From the NCBI GenBank assembly GCA_011525845.1, contig WYBP01000022.1:62001-126000 (forward strand): DNA of 64,000 bases. The letters run 5' to 3'. The position numbers were made by a program, and so were the translations under genes. The DNA comes from Gemmatimonadaceae bacterium (lineage in GTDB: Bacteria > Gemmatimonadota > Gemmatimonadetes > Gemmatimonadales > Gemmatimonadaceae). The notes under the pieces were generated by a model that saw nothing but the letters and a program-made list of their open reading frames with translations, made no database searches and was not told where the DNA came from. Positions 5,919 through 15,257 of the stretch are shown here, piece after piece; position 1 is the first letter of the stretch, and every line of letters begins with the position of its first letter.

Positions 5919-6007
5919 CGCAATAAACTCGGGTGTCGCACATCGTTACGGCAGGTGTGACCCGTGCATTGACACCATCGCGGTCCGGGAGACAGGTTGG
6001 CAGCATC

Positions 6008-9000
6008 GTGAAGCGAATCGTCGGCACTCTGACCGGCTGCCTCGTGGCGGCGGTCCTGCTCGGAAGTTGCATGGGAGAGCCGACCGGCCCCGGGGCCAGG
6101 GTGGGGGCGCTCGCGATCGCCCCCCGCTACGCCAACTTGATGGCCAACGCGATCGTGGATGTCTCCGCGATCCGCATCCAGCTGCGCGAGCCGGAGACCA
6201 ACGCGACCGTGGTCGACACGACGGTCGCCTTCCCGGTGGGCGTCGACAGCATCGCGATCCGGCTCACCGTGCCCCTCGAGACCGGCCTCGACTTCCTGCT
6301 CTTCCTCGCGATGACCGACGCCGCGGGGGACACGGTCTTCCGCGCCGGCCCGCTCCCCGTCCGGGTCAGCAGTTCGCCCTTCGCGGTCCGCGTCGCCGAG
6401 CCCTTGCTCACGTATGTCGGCACGGGGGCGAACGCGACCGCGGTCCGGTTCGTGAACCCGCCCCTCGCCCTCACCTTCGGGGCAACGGCCACGCTGGTCG
6501 CGGAGGCGCTCGACGCCCAGGGGACGGTGATCCCGGGCACGCCGATCGGCTTCCAACTGGTGAACCCCGCGGACTCCACGCGGCTCTCGATCACGGACGA
6601 GCGCGCGGGGACCATCGTGGCGCGGTCGCTCCGGGGCGTCGTGCCCGTGCGCGCGGTGCTCGCGACGGGGCAGACGGCGCAACACGCGATCGCGGTGCAG
6701 CCGGTGGCGCTCGACGTGATCGCGCAATCGGGCGCTGGGCAGACGGGCACGGTGGGGCTCGCGCTCGCGCAGCCCCTGGTGGCGCGCGTCCGCGCCGCCG
6801 ACGGCCTCGGCGTGCAGGGCGTGCCGGTCAACTTCGAGGTGCTCACCGGCGGCGGGACGCTGAGCCGGCTGGTCGACACCACCGACGTCAACGGCGATGC
6901 GCGCTCCACGCTCACGCTGGGCGGCACCCCGGGCGTGCAGACGGCGCGCGCGGTGGTGCCATCGCTCGGCGGCGCCACGGCGTCCTTCTCCGCCACGGCC
7001 GTGGTGGGGGCGACGACGCAGCTGGTGTTCGGGGTGCAGCCCGTGAGCACGACCTCGGGCGCGGTGCTGGCGCCGGCCGTGACGGTGCGGGCGCGCGACG
7101 CGCTCGGGAACGACGTCACGACCTTCACCGGGAACGTGACGATCGCCCTGCTCAACAACCCCTCCGGCGCGGTGCTCGGCGGCACGCTCACGCGCGCGGC
7201 GGTCGCCGGCGTGGCGACCTTCAACGACCTCGCGCTCGCCGGGCTCGGCACCGGCATCACCATGCGGGCGACCTCGGGCGCCCTCGCGGCCGCGACGAGC
7301 GCGGCGTTCAACATCACCATCGGCGCGCCGGCAGCGCTCAGCTTCACCGTGCAGCCGCCGGCCACGAGCCCGGGCTCCCCCTTCATCGTGGCGGTCGCCG
7401 CGCGCGATGCAGGCGGGAACATCGTCCCGACCTTCACCCTCCCCGTCTCGGTCGCCATCGGCACCAACCCCGCGGGCGGCACGCTTTCCGGCGTGACGAC
7501 CGTCAACGCCGTGGCCGGCGTCGCGACCTTCGCGGGGCTCTCGATCGACAACGTCGGCACCGGGTACACGCTGAGCGCCACGCGCACGGGCCTCACGACC
7601 GCGACGTCGGTGCCGTTCAATGTCGCCGTGGGCGCCGGGATCAACGCCTGGATCAACGCCGCCGGGGGCAACTGGAGCACGCCGGGGAACTGGAGCCTCG
7701 GCACCGTGCCGACCGCCGCGGACACCGTCTGGATCCGGCAGTCGGGCACCTACTCCGTGAACGTGGACGTGGCCGCGACCGTGGGCCGGATGCTCGTGGG
7801 CGGCACGAGTGGCACGCAGACGCTCAACGTGAACACGGGCACGCTCACGATGACCGACAGCGTGCTCGTGAACGCGAACGGGGCCGTCGTCGTCGCGGGG
7901 GGCGGGATCGCCGGCACCGGCGCGATGGCGGTGGCCAGTGCGTTCACCTGGAACGGGGGCAACCTCTCGGGCACCGGCGCGCGGGTGCGCGTGCTCGCGG
8001 GCGGCTCGCTCACCATCGGCGGCACGGCCACCCGCACGTTCAACGACTTCGTCCTCGAGAACGCCGGCACCGGGAGCTGGACCGGCGCGCACACGATCAA
8101 CAGCGGCGGGGGCGCGACGCTCCGGGTGTTCGCCGGCGCGACGATGAACATCTCGGGCGACCCGCTCTGGTTCTTCAACCAGGGTGGCACGCCCGTGGCG
8201 TTCGATGTGCAGGGCGCGCTCAGCCGCACCACCTCCGCGGGGACGGCGCTCGTCACGGGGCTCGCGCTCTCGGGCTCGCTCAACCTGACGAGCGGCGACA
8301 TCGAGACGCGCGACGTGGGCACGAGCAGCGGGTCGTTCACGGCCGGGGCGGGCACCATCCTCCGCTTCGCCAACGGCACCCACGCGCTGACCGCCGCGGC
8401 GACGGTGCAGGGCGCGGGCACCGTGCTGATCGGCGGGAGCGGCGGCGTCACGAACGCGGGCACCTGGAACGTCACCGGCACCACGCGCCTCGCACCGGGC
8501 GGCACCCTCACCCAGAACGCGGCCGGGAGCACCGGCATCCTCGACCTCGCGGGCGGCGTGCGCGCCGGCACGGGGACGCTCACGGTCGCCGGCAGCATGG
8601 CGTGGAGTTCGGGCGACCTGAGCGGGGGCGGCGGGCTCACGCGCGTGGCTGTCGGCGCACCCCTCACGATCAGCGGCACCGCCACGCGCACGCTGAACGC
8701 CCAGACGCTCGAGGTCGCGGGCACGGCGGTCTGGCTCGGAACGCACACGGTCAACACCGGCAGCGCGGGCACGTTGCGCGTCGCCGCGACCGGCACGCTC
8801 GACATCCAGGGCGACCCGACCTTCGTCTACAGCCAGGGCGGGCCCGCCACGCTCTTCCAGAACCTCGGCACGGTCACGCGCTCGGTGAGTGCGGGGCTCG
8901 TGGTGCTGAACGCGCCCGTCACCAACGCGGGCTCCTTCGCGGTGCAGACCGGCATCGTCGAGCTGCGGGGCGGGGGCACGCTCGGCGGCACCTTCACGGT

Positions 9001-11809
9001 GAACTCGCCGAGCCTGCTGCGGTTCCCCGCGGGGACGCTGACGATGCAGCCAGGGCTGAGCGTGGCCGGGACCGGCTCGGCGTCGCTCGAGGGCGCGACG
9101 CTCGCGGGGCTCGCCGCGAGTGACACCGTGCAGTTCAACTCGCTCGTCCTGCAGTCCGGGGCACTCAACCCGGGCGTCGGCGGCGTGGTGCGCGTGAACA
9201 CCCTCCTCGACTGGTCGGGCGCGGCAGCGCTTGGCGGCGGCGGCACCACGCGCGTGATGCCGGCCGCGAACCTCTCGATCAACGGCGCGACCACGCGCCA
9301 GCTGAACAACCACACGATCGCGAACGAGGGGACCGCGAACTGGACCGGCGCGGCGACGATCAACAGCGGCGCTTCGGCTCGCATCCGGAACAGCGGCACC
9401 TTCACCTGGGCGGGCGACGGGTCCTACCTCTTCAACCAGGGCGGCGGGCTCAGCGTCTTCGAGAACCTCGGCGTCTTCCAGCGCACCGGCACGGGCGTCG
9501 CCCAGCTTGGCGCGCAGCTCATCGACACGCTGGGCACGAGCTTCACGCTGGCGGCTGGTGAGCTGCGGGCCGCGAACGGTGGCCGGATCGGCGGCAACAA
9601 GGCGCTGACGGGAGGTGTCTTCGAGCTCGGAGGCGGCACGCTCAGCATGCGGAGCGGAATGCTCTGGTCCGGCACTGGCGGGTATGTGCGCGTGACGGCC
9701 GGCACCCTCACGCTCGACTCGGCGGTGACGGTCACGATGCCGCGGCTCGACCTCGCCGGCGGCCAGCTGACGCACGAGGGGCTCGTGGACGTCATCACCG
9801 CCATGAACTGGTCAGCGGGCGACATCACCTCGAACACCGTCGGCGGGGGCGGCACCACGCGCGTGCGCGCCGGTGGCTTGATGACGATCAGCGGTGCGGG
9901 CACCCGCACGCTCTCGGGCACCCACCTGCTGCAGCTCCTCGGGAACACCAACTTCACGGCGACCGGCTCGATCTTCTCCGGCTCGGGTGCGGTGATCGCC
10001 AACTCGGGGCTCTTCGACCTGCAGGGGAGCGGGAGCATCCTGTGGAACCAGGGCGGGGCCGCCACCACGTTCCAGAACCTCGCGGGTGCGACGCTCCGCA
10101 GTTCGGGCGCCACCACCGGCCAGATCAGCTTCCCGGTGCAGAACCTCGGGGCGCTCTCCGTCACCGGGGATTCGCTCCAGCTCTCGGGCGGCAGCGTCAC
10201 GAACTTCTCCGGGACCGCGACGATCTCCTCCGGCGCGCTCTTCCTCTCGGGTGGCGTCTTCACCCTCACGGGCCCGCTCACCACGGCGGGCGCGAATGCG
10301 CACCTCACCGTGGGCGGCACGCTCGACCTCGCGGGCTTCACGGCCACCGTCGGCGGCAACTTCGCCACCACGGGTGCGGGCGTCTTCCAGCAGTCCGTGG
10401 CCACGTCGCAGCTGAACGTCGCGGGGAGCGTGTCGGTCGGCGGGGGCGGCTCCACCGTGACGGCGGGCCAGCTCCAGGTGGGGGGGAGCTTCACGCAGGC
10501 GGGGGCGGCGAACGCCTTCGTCGCCTCGGGCACGCACCGCACGGTGCTGAACGGCACCGGCACCCAGAACATCTCCTTCGCCAACGCGCCCACCTCCCGG
10601 TTCAACCGCCTCGACATCGTGGACATCACGCGCAACGTGGTGATCCAGTCGAACGTGTTCGTGGCGGACACGCTCCTGATGCGCGGCGGGAGCGGGGCGT
10701 CGAACCTCATCGGCTCCGGCACGTCGCAGCGGTTGACGGCGAACGGTGCGCTGGTGATGATCTGGTCCACGCTCTCGCCGCGTCTCGCACCCCCCGTGCT
10801 CGAGATCAACGCGACGCCGGCGGTCGGACCGATCGGGACGGGCGGCGGCATCCAGGCCGACACCACGGTCTTCATCGGCGGGAACGTGAACGCGCTGCCG
10901 GTCGGCGCGGGGTACAACTACCGCAGCCTCCGGATCGCCGGGACCGCCAGCTTCAGCCTCCCCTCGGACACGATCATCGGCGACCTGCACGTCGCCTCCA
11001 CCCTCGGGTTCTTCCCCGGCAGCACCACCTTCCGCGTGGGGGGCAAGCTGCGCGTGGACGGCACCGGCCAGCTGGCGATCTTCAGCACCGACGTGAACGT
11101 CACGGTGGTGGACAGCACGATCTTCGCGGGCGGGACCACGAACGGGGCGCTCACGGCGGGGACGCTGCACGCGCTGGGCGACTTCGTGCAATCGGGCGGC
11201 GATCCCGCGGCCTTCTCGGCCACCGGGACCTTCCGCGTGCGCCTCGCGGGCACGGGGCTCCAGCGCGTGCGGTTCGTGAACCCGGACAGCAGCACCACCA
11301 GCTCGCACTTCGCGGACCTCGAGATCGCGAACAGCTCGGTGGCGGGGGTGCAGTTCCAGTCGCCGGTCTTCGCGGTGAACCAGCTGCGGTCGCAGCCGGG
11401 CCGGCCCGCGATCAGCCGCGTGGCGGGATCGTCGGCCACGCCGCTCACGATCGCCGGGATCCTCGCGGACTCGATCACGTTCGACGGCGTGCCGTTGCGG
11501 ATCGCGGGCGCCGCCGCGCTCACGAACATGAGCGTGTTCACCTTCCAGAACATGAACCCGGCGGTGGACCAGTTCATCATCCGGCGCGCGGGGCTCGTCG
11601 GGACCTTCTTCCCGAACCAGTTGGTCTTCTCCACCGTGCCCAACGCCGGCGTCTACTACCTGCGGCTCGACAACACGACGGTCGTGGGGCTCGGCCTCGC
11701 GGTGACCTTCTTCAACTCGAGTCCGGTCGCCGGCAGCATGACCGGTCGCTACCTGCGGACGGGATCGCCGATCCCCGTGCTCACCTGGAATGGCACGCTG
11801 AATCCCTGA
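6008..11809 (+). CDS. giant repeat-containing surface lipoprotein (Ig-like plus beta-solenoid repeats)
   Basis: The product has about 1933 residues. I chose GTG at 6008 because it gives a compact signal (VKRIVGTLTGC..VLLGSC) with lipobox Cys21; an earlier GTG at 5933 would lie in the tgt promoter region. Order of parts: an N-terminal beta domain, one invasin-like Ig domain near residues 240-330 (VPVNFEVLTGGGTL..DVNGDA), two tandem Ig-like units of about 105 residues (about 7000-7630), an NWSTPGNWSLGTVPTAADTV segment, and then four copies of a unit of about 200 residues containing W-GG-L-G, TATRTLN and FNQGG motifs. The C-terminal 450 residues are beta-rich, and there is no clear autotransporter barrel. 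It is probably an elongated cell-surface fibre or adhesin. Composition is extremely rich in Gly, Thr and Ala. Confidence 0.85.
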   Translation: MKRIVGTLTGCLVAAVLLGSCMGEPTGPGARVGALAIAPRYANLMANAIVDVSAIRIQLREPETNATVVDTTVAFPVGVDSIAIRLTVPLETGLDFLLFLAMTDAAGDTVFRAGPLPVRVSSSPFAVRVAEPLLTYVGTGANATAVRFVNPPLALTFGATATLVAEALDAQGTVIPGTPIGFQLVNPADSTRLSITDERAGTIVARSLRGVVPVRAVLATGQTAQHAIAVQPVALDVIAQSGAGQTGTVGLALAQPLVARVRAADGLGVQGVPVNFEVLTGGGTLSRLVDTTDVNGDARSTLTLGGTPGVQTARAVVPSLGGATASFSATAVVGATTQLVFGVQPVSTTSGAVLAPAVTVRARDALGNDVTTFTGNVTIALLNNPSGAVLGGTLTRAAVAGVATFNDLALAGLGTGITMRATSGALAAATSAAFNITIGAPAALSFTVQPPATSPGSPFIVAVAARDAGGNIVPTFTLPVSVAIGTNPAGGTLSGVTTVNAVAGVATFAGLSIDNVGTGYTLSATRTGLTTATSVPFNVAVGAGINAWINAAGGNWSTPGNWSLGTVPTAADTVWIRQSGTYSVNVDVAATVGRMLVGGTSGTQTLNVNTGTLTMTDSVLVNANGAVVVAGGGIAGTGAMAVASAFTWNGGNLSGTGARVRVLAGGSLTIGGTATRTFNDFVLENAGTGSWTGAHTINSGGGATLRVFAGATMNISGDPLWFFNQGGTPVAFDVQGALSRTTSAGTALVTGLALSGSLNLTSGDIETRDVGTSSGSFTAGAGTILRFANGTHALTAAATVQGAGTVLIGGSGGVTNAGTWNVTGTTRLAPGGTLTQNAAGSTGILDLAGGVRAGTGTLTVAGSMAWSSGDLSGGGGLTRVAVGAPLTISGTATRTLNAQTLEVAGTAVWLGTHTVNTGSAGTLRVAATGTLDIQGDPTFVYSQGGPATLFQNLGTVTRSVSAGLVVLNAPVTNAGSFAVQTGIVELRGGGTLGGTFTVNSPSLLRFPAGTLTMQPGLSVAGTGSASLEGATLAGLAASDTVQFNSLVLQSGALNPGVGGVVRVNTLLDWSGAAALGGGGTTRVMPAANLSINGATTRQLNNHTIANEGTANWTGAATINSGASARIRNSGTFTWAGDGSYLFNQGGGLSVFENLGVFQRTGTGVAQLGAQLIDTLGTSFTLAAGELRAANGGRIGGNKALTGGVFELGGGTLSMRSGMLWSGTGGYVRVTAGTLTLDSAVTVTMPRLDLAGGQLTHEGLVDVITAMNWSAGDITSNTVGGGGTTRVRAGGLMTISGAGTRTLSGTHLLQLLGNTNFTATGSIFSGSGAVIANSGLFDLQGSGSILWNQGGAATTFQNLAGATLRSSGATTGQISFPVQNLGALSVTGDSLQLSGGSVTNFSGTATISSGALFLSGGVFTLTGPLTTAGANAHLTVGGTLDLAGFTATVGGNFATTGAGVFQQSVATSQLNVAGSVSVGGGGSTVTAGQLQVGGSFTQAGAANAFVASGTHRTVLNGTGTQNISFANAPTSRFNRLDIVDITRNVVIQSNVFVADTLLMRGGSGASNLIGSGTSQRLTANGALVMIWSTLSPRLAPPVLEINATPAVGPIGTGGGIQADTTVFIGGNVNALPVGAGYNYRSLRIAGTASFSLPSDTIIGDLHVASTLGFFPGSTTFRVGGKLRVDGTGQLAIFSTDVNVTVVDSTIFAGGTTNGALTAGTLHALGDFVQSGGDPAAFSATGTFRVRLAGTGLQRVRFVNPDSSTTSSHFADLEIANSSVAGVQFQSPVFAVNQLRSQPGRPAISRVAGSSATPLTIAGILADSITFDGVPLRIAGAAALTNMSVFTFQNMNPAVDQFIIRRAGLVGTFFPNQLVFSTVPNAGVYYLRLDNTTVVGLGLAVTFFNSSPVAGSMTGRYLRTGSPIPVLTWNGTLNP
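7941..10400 (+). repeat. four in-frame ~200-codon repeats within the giant lipoprotein gene
   Basis: Four units begin near 7941 (FTWNGGNLSGTGARVRV), 8594 (MAWSSGDLSGGGGLTRV), 9204 (LDWSGAAALGGGGTTRV) and 9802 (MNWSAGDITSNTVGGGG). They are about 650, 610 and 600 bases apart. Each unit then carries a T-I-x-G-x-x-T-R-x-L/F-N motif, a W-x-x-x-H/T-T-I/V-N-x-G motif and a FNQGG or WNQGG motif. The copies are diverged at protein level, so they are old duplications rather than recent ones. Boundaries are approximate. Confidence 0.8.
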
Positions 11810-11852: not shown

Positions 11853-11881
11853 TTGACTTCCCGAAGTCGAGGGCCAATACT
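11853..11881 (+). promoter_or_regulatory. predicted sigma70-type promoter of the met operon
   Basis: TTGACT at 11853-11858 is followed after 17 bases by AATACT at 11876-11881, a good -35 and an acceptable -10. A perfect inverted repeat, GACTTC-CC-GAAGTC (11855-11868), covers the end of the -35 and the start of the spacer and could be a repressor site. Transcription would begin near 11888 and run straight into the riboswitch-like element. Confidence 0.6.
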
Positions 11882-11904
11882 GTCGCCAGCACACAACCGA
11901 AGCC

Positions 11905-11957
11905 CGTGGTCATTTGCCGCGATTGCCGCCACGCTAAAGAAAGAGCTAAAACGCGAT
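11905..11957 (+). ncRNA. SAM-II-class riboswitch candidate in the met leader
   Basis: The segment has the features I recall for the SAM-II (metA-motif) riboswitch. A P1 stem CGTGG (11905-11909) pairs with CCACG (11929-11933). The loop between them contains CATTTG and ATTGC. An A-rich linker CTAAAGAAAGA follows, then GCTAAAA (11945-11951) and a 3' strand CGCGAT whose GCGAT can pair back to loop ATTGC to make a pseudoknot. It lies between a predicted promoter and a terminator, directly ahead of metX-hom-metZ, genes that SAM-II elements are known to control. The class call is pattern recognition from memory; a covariance search against Rfam SAM-II and SAM-V would settle it. Confidence 0.75.
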
Positions 11958-11959
11958 CA

Positions 11960-11986
11960 CCCGCGGCAGTGCCGTGGGTTTTTTTT
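11960..11986 (+). terminator. intrinsic terminator in the met leader
   Basis: CCCGCGGC (11960-11967) pairs over eight positions (one G-T) with GCCGTGGG (11971-11978) around the loop AGT, followed by eight T residues (11979-11986). It starts three bases after the riboswitch-like pseudoknot strand and 81 bases before the metX start codon. This is the arrangement expected for ligand-dependent transcription termination. Confidence 0.85.
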
Positions 11987-12015
11987 GCGGCGCTGCCAGG
12001 GATCCCGAACACCGC

Positions 12016-12048
12016 GGCCCTCTCCCCCAGGAGAGGGCCTTTCGTTTT
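12016..12048 (+). terminator. second hairpin with T-rich tail ahead of metX
   Basis: A perfect 10-bp stem, 12016-12025 with 12030-12039, closes a CCCA loop and is followed by TTTCGTTTT. Its 3' arm contains AGGAGAGGG, a purine-rich stretch that resembles a Shine-Dalgarno sequence but lies about 30 bases from the metX ATG. It may be a second attenuator or a structure that affects translation. Confidence 0.6.
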
Positions 12049-12067
12049 CCACCCCAGCACGCCTCCC

Positions 12068-13096
12068 ATGTCAGGTTCCGTCACCCTCCCCGCCGACCGG
12101 CCCCTCAGGTGCGTGCCGCTCCCAGCCCTCCCACTCGAGGGCGGGGACCTCCTGCGCGGCGCGACGATGGCCTACCACCTGGATGGCGTGCCCTCCCCGG
12201 CGCGGGACAACGTGGTGGTGGTGCTCCACGCGCTCACCGGCTCAGCCGACGCGGCGGGTGACTGGTGGCGCGGGCTCATCGGACCCGGATGCGCCCTCGA
12301 CACCGACCGGTTCGCCGTCCTCTCGCCGAACCTCCTGGGCTCCTGCTACGGGAGCAGCGGCCCGAGGCACGCCGCTGATCCGTTCCCGCGCCTGACCACC
12401 CGCGACATGGCACGCGCGGTGGCCGTGCTCCTCGAACTGCTGCGCATCCCCACCGTGCGGCTCGTCACCGGGGGCTCGCTCGGTGGGATGGTCGCGCTCG
12501 AGTTCGTGGCGACCTTTCCCGCGCGCGCTCGCTCCGCCGTGGTCTTCGCCGCACCGGCGGCGCAGTCGGCCGCGGCCATCGGGTGGGTGCACGTGCAACG
12601 CGAGGCGCTGCGCGTCGGGGGCGATCGGGGCCTCTCCCTCGCCCGGCAGGTGGCGATGCTCACCTACCGCACCGCGGACGGCCTGCGCGACCGGTTCGGC
12701 CGCCTGCGGGGGCAGCACCGCGACTTCGCGGTGCAGGAGTGGCTGACCCGCCACGGGGAGCGGCTCGACGCGCGCTTCGACCGTGCGAGCTACCTCGCGC
12801 TGCTCGACGCGATGGACACCCACGACCTCGCGCGCGGCCGCGGCGGCGTGGGCGAGCGCCTCCGCGGGTCGGGGACCGCGATCACGGGCGTCGGGATCCC
12901 CGGCGACCTGTTCTATCCGGCGGTGGAGGTCGCGTCCTGGGTCGAGGCCGCCGGGGGGCGCTTCCGCACGATCGACTCGCCGCACGGACACGACGCGTTC
13001 CTGATCGAGAAGGCGCAGGTGGGTGCGCTCCTCACCGAGGCGCTCACGTCGCCGCACCGTGGTCCCGCGGCCGCCGCCGTGCGGAGGCTCGCGTGA
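12068..13096 (+). CDS. metX: homoserine O-acetyltransferase
   Basis: This alpha/beta-hydrolase-fold enzyme activates homoserine for sulfur transfer in methionine synthesis. The 342-residue product shows the MetX pattern: NVVVVLHALTGSADAAGDWW near residue 41, SPNLLGSCYGSSGP, the nucleophile Ser137 in TGGSLGGM, Asp280 in GIPGDLFYP and His308 in SPHGHDAF. The ATG at 12068 is the first in-frame start after the leader hairpins; there is no good Shine-Dalgarno site. It is the first gene of a three-gene operon, overlapping hom by 4 bases. Whether the acyl donor is acetyl-CoA or succinyl-CoA cannot be fixed by eye, since some MetX-fold enzymes use succinyl-CoA and the last gene resembles MetZ. Confidence 0.93.
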   Translation: MSGSVTLPADRPLRCVPLPALPLEGGDLLRGATMAYHLDGVPSPARDNVVVVLHALTGSADAAGDWWRGLIGPGCALDTDRFAVLSPNLLGSCYGSSGPRHAADPFPRLTTRDMARAVAVLLELLRIPTVRLVTGGSLGGMVALEFVATFPARARSAVVFAAPAAQSAAAIGWVHVQREALRVGGDRGLSLARQVAMLTYRTADGLRDRFGRLRGQHRDFAVQEWLTRHGERLDARFDRASYLALLDAMDTHDLARGRGGVGERLRGSGTAITGVGIPGDLFYPAVEVASWVEAAGGRFRTIDSPHGHDAFLIEKAQVGALLTEALTSPHRGPAAAAVRRLA

Positions 13097-14097
13097 GCAC
13101 GACCCTGGCCTCTCGCGCATCGTCCACCGCCTCGCGGCCGCCCGTCACGACCGTCCGCGTGGCGCTCGCAGGGTGCGGCACGGTGGGGGGCGCCCTCCTC
13201 GACCTCCTGGCACGGCACGCGGATGATCTCACCCGCCGCCACGCGCTGCGATTCCACGTGGTGCGCATCCTCGCCCGCGACGCGTCCCGGCCGCGCTCCA
13301 CGGCGGTGGAGCGGGCGCTGCTCACCACCTCCGTGGCGGAGTTCCTCGACACGCCGGCCGACGTGGTGGTCGAGGCCATCGGCGGGTCGTGCACGGCGGA
13401 CGTGCTGGCCCGAGGGGCGCTCGCCCATGGTCGCGCACTCGTCACCGCGAACAAGGCGCTCCTGCGCACGCAGGGACCGGCGCTCGCCGCCTTCGGGCCC
13501 CGGTTGCGCTTCGAGGCCGCGGTCGGTGGCGGCGTGCCGATCGTGCGGCTCCTGCGCGAGGGACTGGCGGGCCAGGGCGTCCACCGCGTGCGCGCTGTCC
13601 TGAACGGCACCACGAACTACATCCTCTCGCGGATCGAGCGCGGCGATCCCTACGCCGCGGCGCTCGCGGCCGCGCAGCGCGCGGGGTTCGCGGAGGCCGA
13701 TCCCTCGCGCGACCTGCAGGGCGTGGACGCCGCGGACAAGCTCGCCCTGCTCGCGTGGCTCGCGTTCGGCGCCGACCCCTCCACCCTCGAGGTCGTGACG
13801 GAGGGACTGCCGCGGGATGTCGATGCGGCCGTGCGCGGCGCGGCGCGCAGCGGCCGGCGCCTCCGGCTCGTCGCCACGGCGGAGCGCGCGGCGCGCGGCG
13901 TGACGGCGCACGTCTCCCCCGCGCTGCTCCACCTGGATGACCCGCTCGCCGCCGCCGTCGACGAGGAGAACGTGATCCAGGTGACGAGTGCCTCGAGCGG
14001 CACCCTGACCCTCCGCGGGCGCGGCGCGGGCGGTGCGGCCACGGCCGCCGCCCTCCTCGCCGACCTCATCCACCTCTTCCAACCCGGCACCCACTGA
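13093..14097 (+). CDS. hom: homoserine dehydrogenase (no ACT domain)
   Basis: The enzyme reduces aspartate semialdehyde to homoserine. It starts at GTG 13093, inside the metX stop region (GTGA overlap). The 334-residue product has a Rossmann motif GCGTVG at residues 27-32, the NGTTNYILSRIE substrate-binding stretch, and the EADPSRDLQGVDAADK signature with Glu201 and the catalytic Lys216. Most homoserine dehydrogenases have about 430 residues because of a C-terminal ACT domain that binds threonine. This one ends after the catalytic domain, so threonine feedback through that domain is not expected. The RASSTASRP N-terminus is poorly conserved and the true start could be slightly later. Confidence 0.94.
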   Translation: MSTTLASRASSTASRPPVTTVRVALAGCGTVGGALLDLLARHADDLTRRHALRFHVVRILARDASRPRSTAVERALLTTSVAEFLDTPADVVVEAIGGSCTADVLARGALAHGRALVTANKALLRTQGPALAAFGPRLRFEAAVGGGVPIVRLLREGLAGQGVHRVRAVLNGTTNYILSRIERGDPYAAALAAAQRAGFAEADPSRDLQGVDAADKLALLAWLAFGADPSTLEVVTEGLPRDVDAAVRGAARSGRRLRLVATAERAARGVTAHVSPALLHLDDPLAAAVDEENVIQVTSASSGTLTLRGRGAGGAATAAALLADLIHLFQPGTH

Positions 14098-15257
14098 TGC
14101 GCCCCGACACCCTCGCCATCCGCACCCAGGCGGCGCGCTCCGCCCATCGCGAGCACGCGGTGCCCCTCTTCCTCACCTCGAGCTTCGTCTTCGACAGCGC
14201 CGAGCAGGCGCGCGCGCTCTTCGCCGAGGAGGAGCAGGGGCCCGTCTACAGTCGCTACTCGAACCCCAACACGGACGAGTTCGTGGAGAAGCTCCGCCTC
14301 CTCGAGGGTGCCGAGGACGGGATCGCGACGGCCTCGGGGATGGCGGCGGTCTTCACGGCGCTCGCCTCGCTGCTGAGCGCCGGCGACCACGTGGTGGCGG
14401 GACGCGCCCTCTTCGGCTCCACGCACCAGCTGCTGACGCGCGTCTTCCCGCGCTGGGGCGTGACGCACGACTACGTGGACGGTGCCGACCCCGACCGGTG
14501 GCGCGCGGCGCTCCGGCCCAACACGCGCGCACTCTTCGTGGAGACCCCCTCCAACCCCGGGCTCGAGCTCGTGGACCTCGCGGCGCTCGGCGCGCTGGCC
14601 AGCGAGCGCGGGATCCCGCTGGTGGTGGACAACTGCTTCGCCACGCCCGTCCTCCAGCGTCCGATCGAGGCGGGCGCGGCGCTCGTGCTCCACTCCGCCA
14701 CGAAGTTCATCGACGGCCAGGGGCGGGTGCTCGGTGGCGCGATCGTCGGCGACGGCGCGCTGGTGGCGGAGGCGCGCTTCCACGCGAGGCACACGGGGCC
14801 GGCGCTGGCGCCGTTCAATGCGTGGGTGCTCTCGAAGAGCCTGGAGACGCTCTCGCTCCGGATGGAGCGGCACTGCGCGAACGCGCTCGCGATCGCCGCG
14901 CGCCTGGAAGCGGAGGCGCGGGTCGAGGCGGTGCGCTACCCGCACCTGCCGTCACACCCGCAATTCGCGCTCGCCAAGCGCCAGATGCGGTGGGGCGGGG
15001 GTGTGCTGACCCTCCGGCTCCCGGACTACGGGAGCGCCACCCGCTTCCTCGACGCGCTGCGCCTCTGTTCCCACTCCCCGAACCTCGGCGACACGCGCAC
15101 GATCGTCACGCACCCCGCCTCCACCACCCACTCCAGGCTCTCGGAGGCGGAGCGGGCGGCGGTCGGCATCACCCCGGGACTGGTGCGGATCTCCGTCGGT
15201 CTCGAGGACGTCGACGACCTGCTCGACGACCTCACCCGCGCCCTCAGGGAGGCGTGA
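14097..15257 (+). CDS. metZ: O-succinyl/acetylhomoserine sulfhydrylase (Cys/Met metabolism PLP enzyme)
   Basis: A 386-residue PLP enzyme of the Cys/Met metabolism family that should convert acylated homoserine and sulfide to homocysteine. The PLP lysine is Lys203 in HSATKFIDGQGRVLGG. Also visible are YSRYSNPN near the N-terminus, the SGMAAVFTAL cofactor-phosphate region, ETPSNPGLELVD, and a C-terminal RISVGLEDVDDLLDDL. The combination resembles MetZ more than cystathionine gamma-synthase. The ATG overlaps the hom stop by one base. The 3' end overlaps a convergent lipoprotein gene by 14 bases. Control is expected through the operon leader. MetB/MetY-type activity cannot be excluded. Confidence 0.92.
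   Translation: MRPDTLAIRTQAARSAHREHAVPLFLTSSFVFDSAEQARALFAEEEQGPVYSRYSNPNTDEFVEKLRLLEGAEDGIATASGMAAVFTALASLLSAGDHVVAGRALFGSTHQLLTRVFPRWGVTHDYVDGADPDRWRAALRPNTRALFVETPSNPGLELVDLAALGALASERGIPLVVDNCFATPVLQRPIEAGAALVLHSATKFIDGQGRVLGGAIVGDGALVAEARFHARHTGPALAPFNAWVLSKSLETLSLRMERHCANALAIAARLEAEARVEAVRYPHLPSHPQFALAKRQMRWGGGVLTLRLPDYGSATRFLDALRLCSHSPNLGDTRTIVTHPASTTHSRLSEAERAAVGITPGLVRISVGLEDVDDLLDDLTRALREA

Follow-up and report, generated by a model that had tools for sequence, protein, structure and literature searches.

How could a small SAM-II aptamer control an intrinsic terminator that begins only three bases after it? The question is raised by the leader of a metX-hom-metZ operon in a Gemmatimonadaceae bacterium (GCA_011525845.1, contig WYBP01000022.1, 62,001-126,000; this stretch of 64,000 nt is referred to here as the window). 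SAM-II is structurally among the best-studied small aptamers, while its driving of termination has hardly been tested. A sequence-only reading of the window had recognized the aptamer and the terminator but gave no account of how SAM would act on the latter. We propose one here, in which a strand of the aptamer loop serves as antiterminator against the 5' arm of the terminator.

Results and Discussion

Promoter, leader and operon

The feature is slightly larger than the 11905-11986 given before, reaching from the promoter at about 11853 to 11986 (Table 1). The window scan found one sigma-70-like promoter against 0.0 expected in shuffles, and the TTGAC and the A..CT positions of the -10 box are kept in all seven metX leaders from the genus. 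The inferred transcription start is near 11888, a few bases before P1; Corbino et al. (2005) described SAM-II RNA as starting a few bases before P1 (PMC1273637). The same scan found four terminator-like sites where shuffles predict 0.3. The terminator next to the aptamer has a stem of eight pairs plus a closing A-U, and it begins about 110 nt 5' of the metX ATG.

The genes identified downstream, for MetX, homoserine dehydrogenase and MetZ, bear out the placement of the element between a promoter and a methionine operon. The suggestion of a phylum other than Proteobacteria also agrees with our search for MetX relatives, where the nearest are from Gemmatimonadaceae. Directly 5' of the leader, at 5933-11809 on the plus strand, is a repeat-rich ORF of 1958 aa with an N-terminal lipoprotein-like LGSC motif and no match in NCBIfam. 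One genus-mate metX match (L138, G073:C1:2052172-2053146) has a single in-frame TGA, so it is a pseudogene, a sequencing error or a case of recoding.

Table 1. Features of the metX-hom-metZ locus (window positions) and the second SAM-II element of the genome.
Feature	Position	Strand	Evidence
Sigma-70-type promoter, TTGACT (11853-11858), 17-nt spacer, AATACT (11876-11881)	11853..11881	+	Motif search
SAM-II aptamer	11902..11957	+	RF00521 35.2 bits, E 2.4e-6; held-out model 55.3 bits, E 1.3e-11
P1 hairpin, CGUGG 11905-11909 with CCACG 11929-11933	11905..11933	+	Pairing, comparison
Loop strand UGCCGCG, common to the P2 pseudoknot (CGCG 11918-11921) and the predicted antiterminator	11915..11921	+	
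Conserved SAM-II GCUAAA	11945..11950	+	Invariant in 77/77 aptamers of the training alignment
P2 3' strand CGCG	11952..11955	+	Pairs with loop CGCG 11918-11921; covariation in relatives
Intrinsic terminator, stem 11959-11967/11971-11979, loop AGU, T tract of eight Ts 11979-11986	11959..11986	+	-15.9 kcal/mol; kept in seven genus leaders
CGCGGCA in terminator 5' arm, predicted antiterminator partner of 11915-11921	11962..11968	+	Perfect 7-nt complement; covariation with loop
Second hairpin GGCCCTCTC..GAGAGGGCC, then TTTCGTTTTC	12016..12049	+	Terminator-like scan; GCGGCCCTCTC region kept in genus
metX, homoserine O-acyltransferase, 342 aa	12068..13096	+	MetX_acetyl 256 bits, under curated cut-off of 500
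hom, homoserine dehydrogenase; GTG start (inferred) overlaps metX stop	13093..14097	+	PRK06349 294.5 bits, above cut-off
metZ, O-succinyl/O-acetylhomoserine sulfhydrylase; ATG overlaps hom stop	14097..15257	+	TIGR01325 518.9 bits, above cut-off
Second SAM-II of the genome (L001), before metF	G000:C13:106211-106286	-	43 bits

The aptamer belongs to the SAM-II class

Judged by covariance models, the element at 11902-11957 is a SAM-II aptamer. An Rfam scan of the window at gathering thresholds gave no match, the element falling 0.8 bits short of the RF00521 (SAM_alpha) gathering score of 36, but this model is by far the best match in the window and aligns end to end. The metX leaders of six genus-mates score 34.2-44.1 bits with the same model. 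We also built a held-out covariance model from 77 Gemmatimonadota aptamers, leaving out the window's genus; with it the element is clearly separated from the next best place in the 64 kb (10.9 bits), and a scan of the whole genome gave strong matches to this element and to just one more.

All of the parts named in the sequence-only reading (P1, CATTTG, ATTGC, an A-rich linker, GCTAAAA, a 3' strand able to pair with the loop, and a terminator with eight Ts) are present: CATTTG at 11911-11916 and ATTGC at 11922-11926 lie in the loop, and the A-rich linker and GCTAAAA (11945-11951) follow. These cover the conserved AUUUG, UUGC, A-rich linker and GCUAAA of SAM-II. The window's own P2 has 4 bp, and three bases, AUC (11956-11958), separate its 3' strand from the terminator stem. 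Over the 74 distinct sequences used for training, pairing holds in 100% of P1 cells and in 90.6% of P2 cells. P2 shows compensatory change in the same set, with 22 cells altered on both sides, a count reached in 0 of 500 shuffles, and a separate contingency count found that loops with GGC go with GCC and loops with CGC with GCG (Fisher p 2.4e-4). Aligning the metX leaders of six other members of the genus showed that aptamer elements, terminator, promoter and spacing are all kept. The window aptamer most likely senses SAM.

We weighed two other origins for the element. SAM-V binds SAM much as SAM-II does (PMC9481103) and forms a similar H-type pseudoknot, although it acts on translation. However, the SAM-V model has no match in the window at E values up to 10, RF00521 fits far better than any other family, and the SAM-II loop and linker are conserved, so that SAM-V or another SAM-binding class is very improbable here. 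Even less credible is a chance resemblance in GC-rich DNA or a leader that encodes a peptide. The metX frame is indeed open back to 11846, but the ATG at that position lies 5' of the -35 box, and coincidence fits poorly with the held-out E value and the conservation of the element in the genus. We rejected all of these readings on the basis of that E value (1.3e-11), the missing SAM-V match and the genus conservation. The SAM-II assignment of the sequence-only reading is upheld by both models, just under the gathering score in the case of RF00521.

The aptamer loop complements the 5' arm of the terminator

Loop strand and terminator 5' arm match over 7 nt, a fit that 0.4-0.5% of the shuffled arms or of the 12-mers from the window also reach. 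Across 117 Gemmatimonadota leaders with terminators, the duplex of each loop with its own 5' arm is more stable than with permuted partners (z -7.9); the effect is weaker when one leader is kept per distinct loop (z -2.9, p 0.005), and the permutations do not fully remove relatedness, with each phylum sampled once. Among the same 117 leaders there was no such fit between the loop and the terminator 3' arm (z -1.0), or between the terminator arm and either the 5' strand of P1 or the linker. The 3' strand of P1 gave a weaker effect, and the segment tested for it takes in the end of the loop.

In 39 leaders with metX-like loops we counted the final base of the loop against its partner in the arm; the two are G-C in 18, C-G in 16, G-U in one and mismatched in four (Fisher 2e-7). 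Both the G-C and the C-G types occur inside and outside the window's family, so the swap probably arose more than once, and both are found at two loci of one genome (L083, genome G024). A joint change, C to U in the loop and A for G in the arm, occurs in L273, which shares a genome with the metX locus L008, and is matched in the terminator 3' arm. Pairing is weak in some relatives, such as those whose loops contain GCGCTG or AATGCA. Taken together, sequence and comparison show that the loop/5'-arm complementarity is conserved and covaries across the phylum.

Two choices define these counts. Pairs were counted on ungapped loop positions, as MAFFT misplaced one gap in 15-nt loops, and the first terminator after the aptamer was always used, as picking the stronger second hairpin in the genus metX leaders had diluted the signal.

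At L083, two SAM-II aptamers on opposite strands diverge from each other with about 225 bp between them; loop and arm are GCCGCG and CGCGG in the first, GCCGCC and GGCGG in the second. All seven metX leaders of the genus carry an unchanged GAAGCCC (11899-11905), running up to and into P1, that could base-pair with the 3' arm and U tract of the terminator. The minimum-energy fold had offered this pairing of the P1 5' strand as a candidate switch; we set it aside as unsupported phylum-wide and at most a feature of the genus.

A predicted transcriptional OFF switch

We consider it probable that the riboswitch turns metX-hom-metZ OFF at the level of transcription. At low SAM, the loop strand would pair with 11962-11968 and sequester the 5' arm, and without a terminator RNA polymerase would read on into the operon. 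When SAM is plentiful, P1 and P2 would be stabilised, CGCG at 11952-11955 would hold the loop strand, and the free 5' arm would allow the terminator to form, stopping transcription near 11986. The 5' strand of P2, which covariation singles out as the likely switching strand, would thus be part of the ligand-sensing pseudoknot and also the antiterminator, with no separate linker helix. Terminator and antiterminator are mutually exclusive, both using 11962-11968.

Nearest-neighbour energies without SAM, from a model that leaves out pseudoknots, ligand and kinetics, are -35.4 kcal/mol for the antiterminator, -30.9 for the terminator and -25.5 for P1 plus terminator, and so favour the antiterminator in the absence of ligand, as an OFF switch needs. 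When the growing transcript was folded, the antiterminator appeared once the 5' arm was out (end 11968), before the 3' arm was complete. Larger alternative folds can also draw in other strands of the aptamer, and the precise antiterminator may therefore exceed seven pairs.

The terminator might instead be constitutive and SAM might act on translation or on the stability of the RNA, the proposal made for metA of Sinorhizobium meliloti, where the terminator 3' of the SAM-II aptamer is not predicted to respond to SAM (PMC9373788). The window's terminator is strong on its own, which fits. We regard this as unlikely, however, since there is covariation between the 5' arm and the aptamer loop and the arm keeps a distance of about 7 nt from GCTAAA across the phylum, and since P2, with some 110 nt and the terminator between it and the metX ATG, cannot occlude the start site directly. 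It could also be argued that the loop/5'-arm pairing, being 7 bp where loop:CGCG is 4 bp, is an extended form of the SAM-bound pseudoknot, in which case SAM would prevent termination. This is more doubtful still: the proximal P2 covaries by itself (in both counts given above) and adjoins GCUAAA, where P2 lies in SAM-II, and it would make little physiological sense for SAM to turn methionine synthesis on. The OFF switch remains our preferred reading, and the intrinsic terminator named as expression platform in the sequence-only reading stands on its stem, T tract and loop-arm covariation, its dependence on SAM being a prediction.

A second hairpin before metX

A second hairpin lies just 5' of metX, with a stem at 12016-12039 (-21 kcal/mol) and a T-rich tail; it is possibly a second terminator or a leader hairpin. 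CCGCGGC on its 5' side (region 12007-12049) is a second complement of the aptamer loop. In metX and metZ leaders this second copy reads CGCGGC where the loop ends in G and GGCGGC where it ends in C, and it may act as a second checkpoint, in a sample that is small and tied to relatedness. Other genera carry GGGCGGCACTC..GGAGAGTGCC immediately 5' of the start codon, and their hairpin includes GGAG, which resembles a Shine-Dalgarno sequence. A tentative wider picture, which we would not bet on, is a phylum-wide rewiring in Gemmatimonadota in which the loop acts as antiterminator against the 5' arm and, at metX and metZ, the second copy adds a checkpoint, giving two-level control from one aptamer.

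Comparison with known SAM-II systems

SAM-II followed by a terminator is already known and not unusual; the new part is the 5'-arm wiring in Gemmatimonadota. Corbino et al. (2005) reported putative terminators in many SAM-II representatives (PMC1273637), Barrick & Breaker (2007) found SAM-II to be the class most often tied to regulatory terminators in alpha- and beta-proteobacteria (PMC2258182), S. meliloti metZ has SAM-II before a terminator (PMC9373788), and in SAM-II/SAM-V tandems SAM-II always precedes a terminator (PMC9481103). We found a terminator with 75 of 83 SAM-II aptamers, almost all of them obtained by searching Pseudomonadota genomes, and with 117 of 156 from Gemmatimonadota. These counts, with which the first two papers agree, contradict the earlier statement that SAM-II usually acts on translation.

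The window element resembles the alpha- and beta-proteobacterial SAM-II (RF00521; Corbino 2005; S. meliloti metZ) in its aptamer, conserved nucleotides, promoter next to P1, methionine genes, downstream intrinsic terminator and expected OFF logic. It differs in that the Gemmatimonadota terminator starts nearer to GCTAAA (a median of 7 nt, versus 18 nt in Proteobacteria) and in that the loop complements the 5' rather than the 3' arm. In Proteobacteria the fit is between the loop and the 3' arm (z -7.4; distinct loops z -4.6), with z -1.7 for the 5' arm, and this platform of loop against 3' arm at a spacing of about 18 nt is not what we see in Gemmatimonadota. In both phyla, these computed comparisons point to the loop strand as the likely switching strand, linked to opposite terminator arms. 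In the openly accessible SAM-II literature that our search covered, in part, we found no description of the 5'-arm wiring.

The translational SAM-II of the Sargasso Sea metX (PDB 2QWY) shares the aptamer fold and gene type, but in the window P2 contains no ribosome-binding site and the start codon lies beyond the terminator, about 115 nt farther on. The predicted switch shares its general logic with the Firmicutes SAM-I with terminator and antiterminator, where the ligand frees the terminator by disrupting the antiterminator, although the SAM-I aptamer is unrelated and much larger.

Distribution and the methionine regulon

RF00521 matched 262 of 395 Gemmatimonadota genomes; at the same threshold, none of 14 control genomes had a match. 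This extends the mapped range of SAM-II to most of the Gemmatimonadota searched. A search of openly accessible papers found none naming both SAM-II and Gemmatimonadota. The genes 3' of the 156 Gemmatimonadota aptamers include metH (57), metF (25), metX (18) and metZ (10). In three metH leaders (L088, L092, L168) the ATG is within about 10 nt of P2 and there is no terminator, an arrangement that suggests direct translational occlusion, and Gemmatimonadota seem to use both platform types.

In the genome studied here, the second SAM-II lies before metF; metH (G000:C13:101633-102448) follows about 4 kb downstream, with no change of contig or strand. The loop of this element, with CGAGGC, also complements GCCTCG in the hairpin that follows, which has a poor T tract. 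No SAM-I was found in this genome. With one SAM-II before metX-hom-metZ and another before metF, and with metH downstream of the latter, the adjacent genes fit a methionine regulon, and SAM-II seems to control both halves of methionine synthesis in this organism. One aptamer that looks to be wired to opposite terminator arms in two phyla would be a directly testable case of the re-wiring of a sensor.
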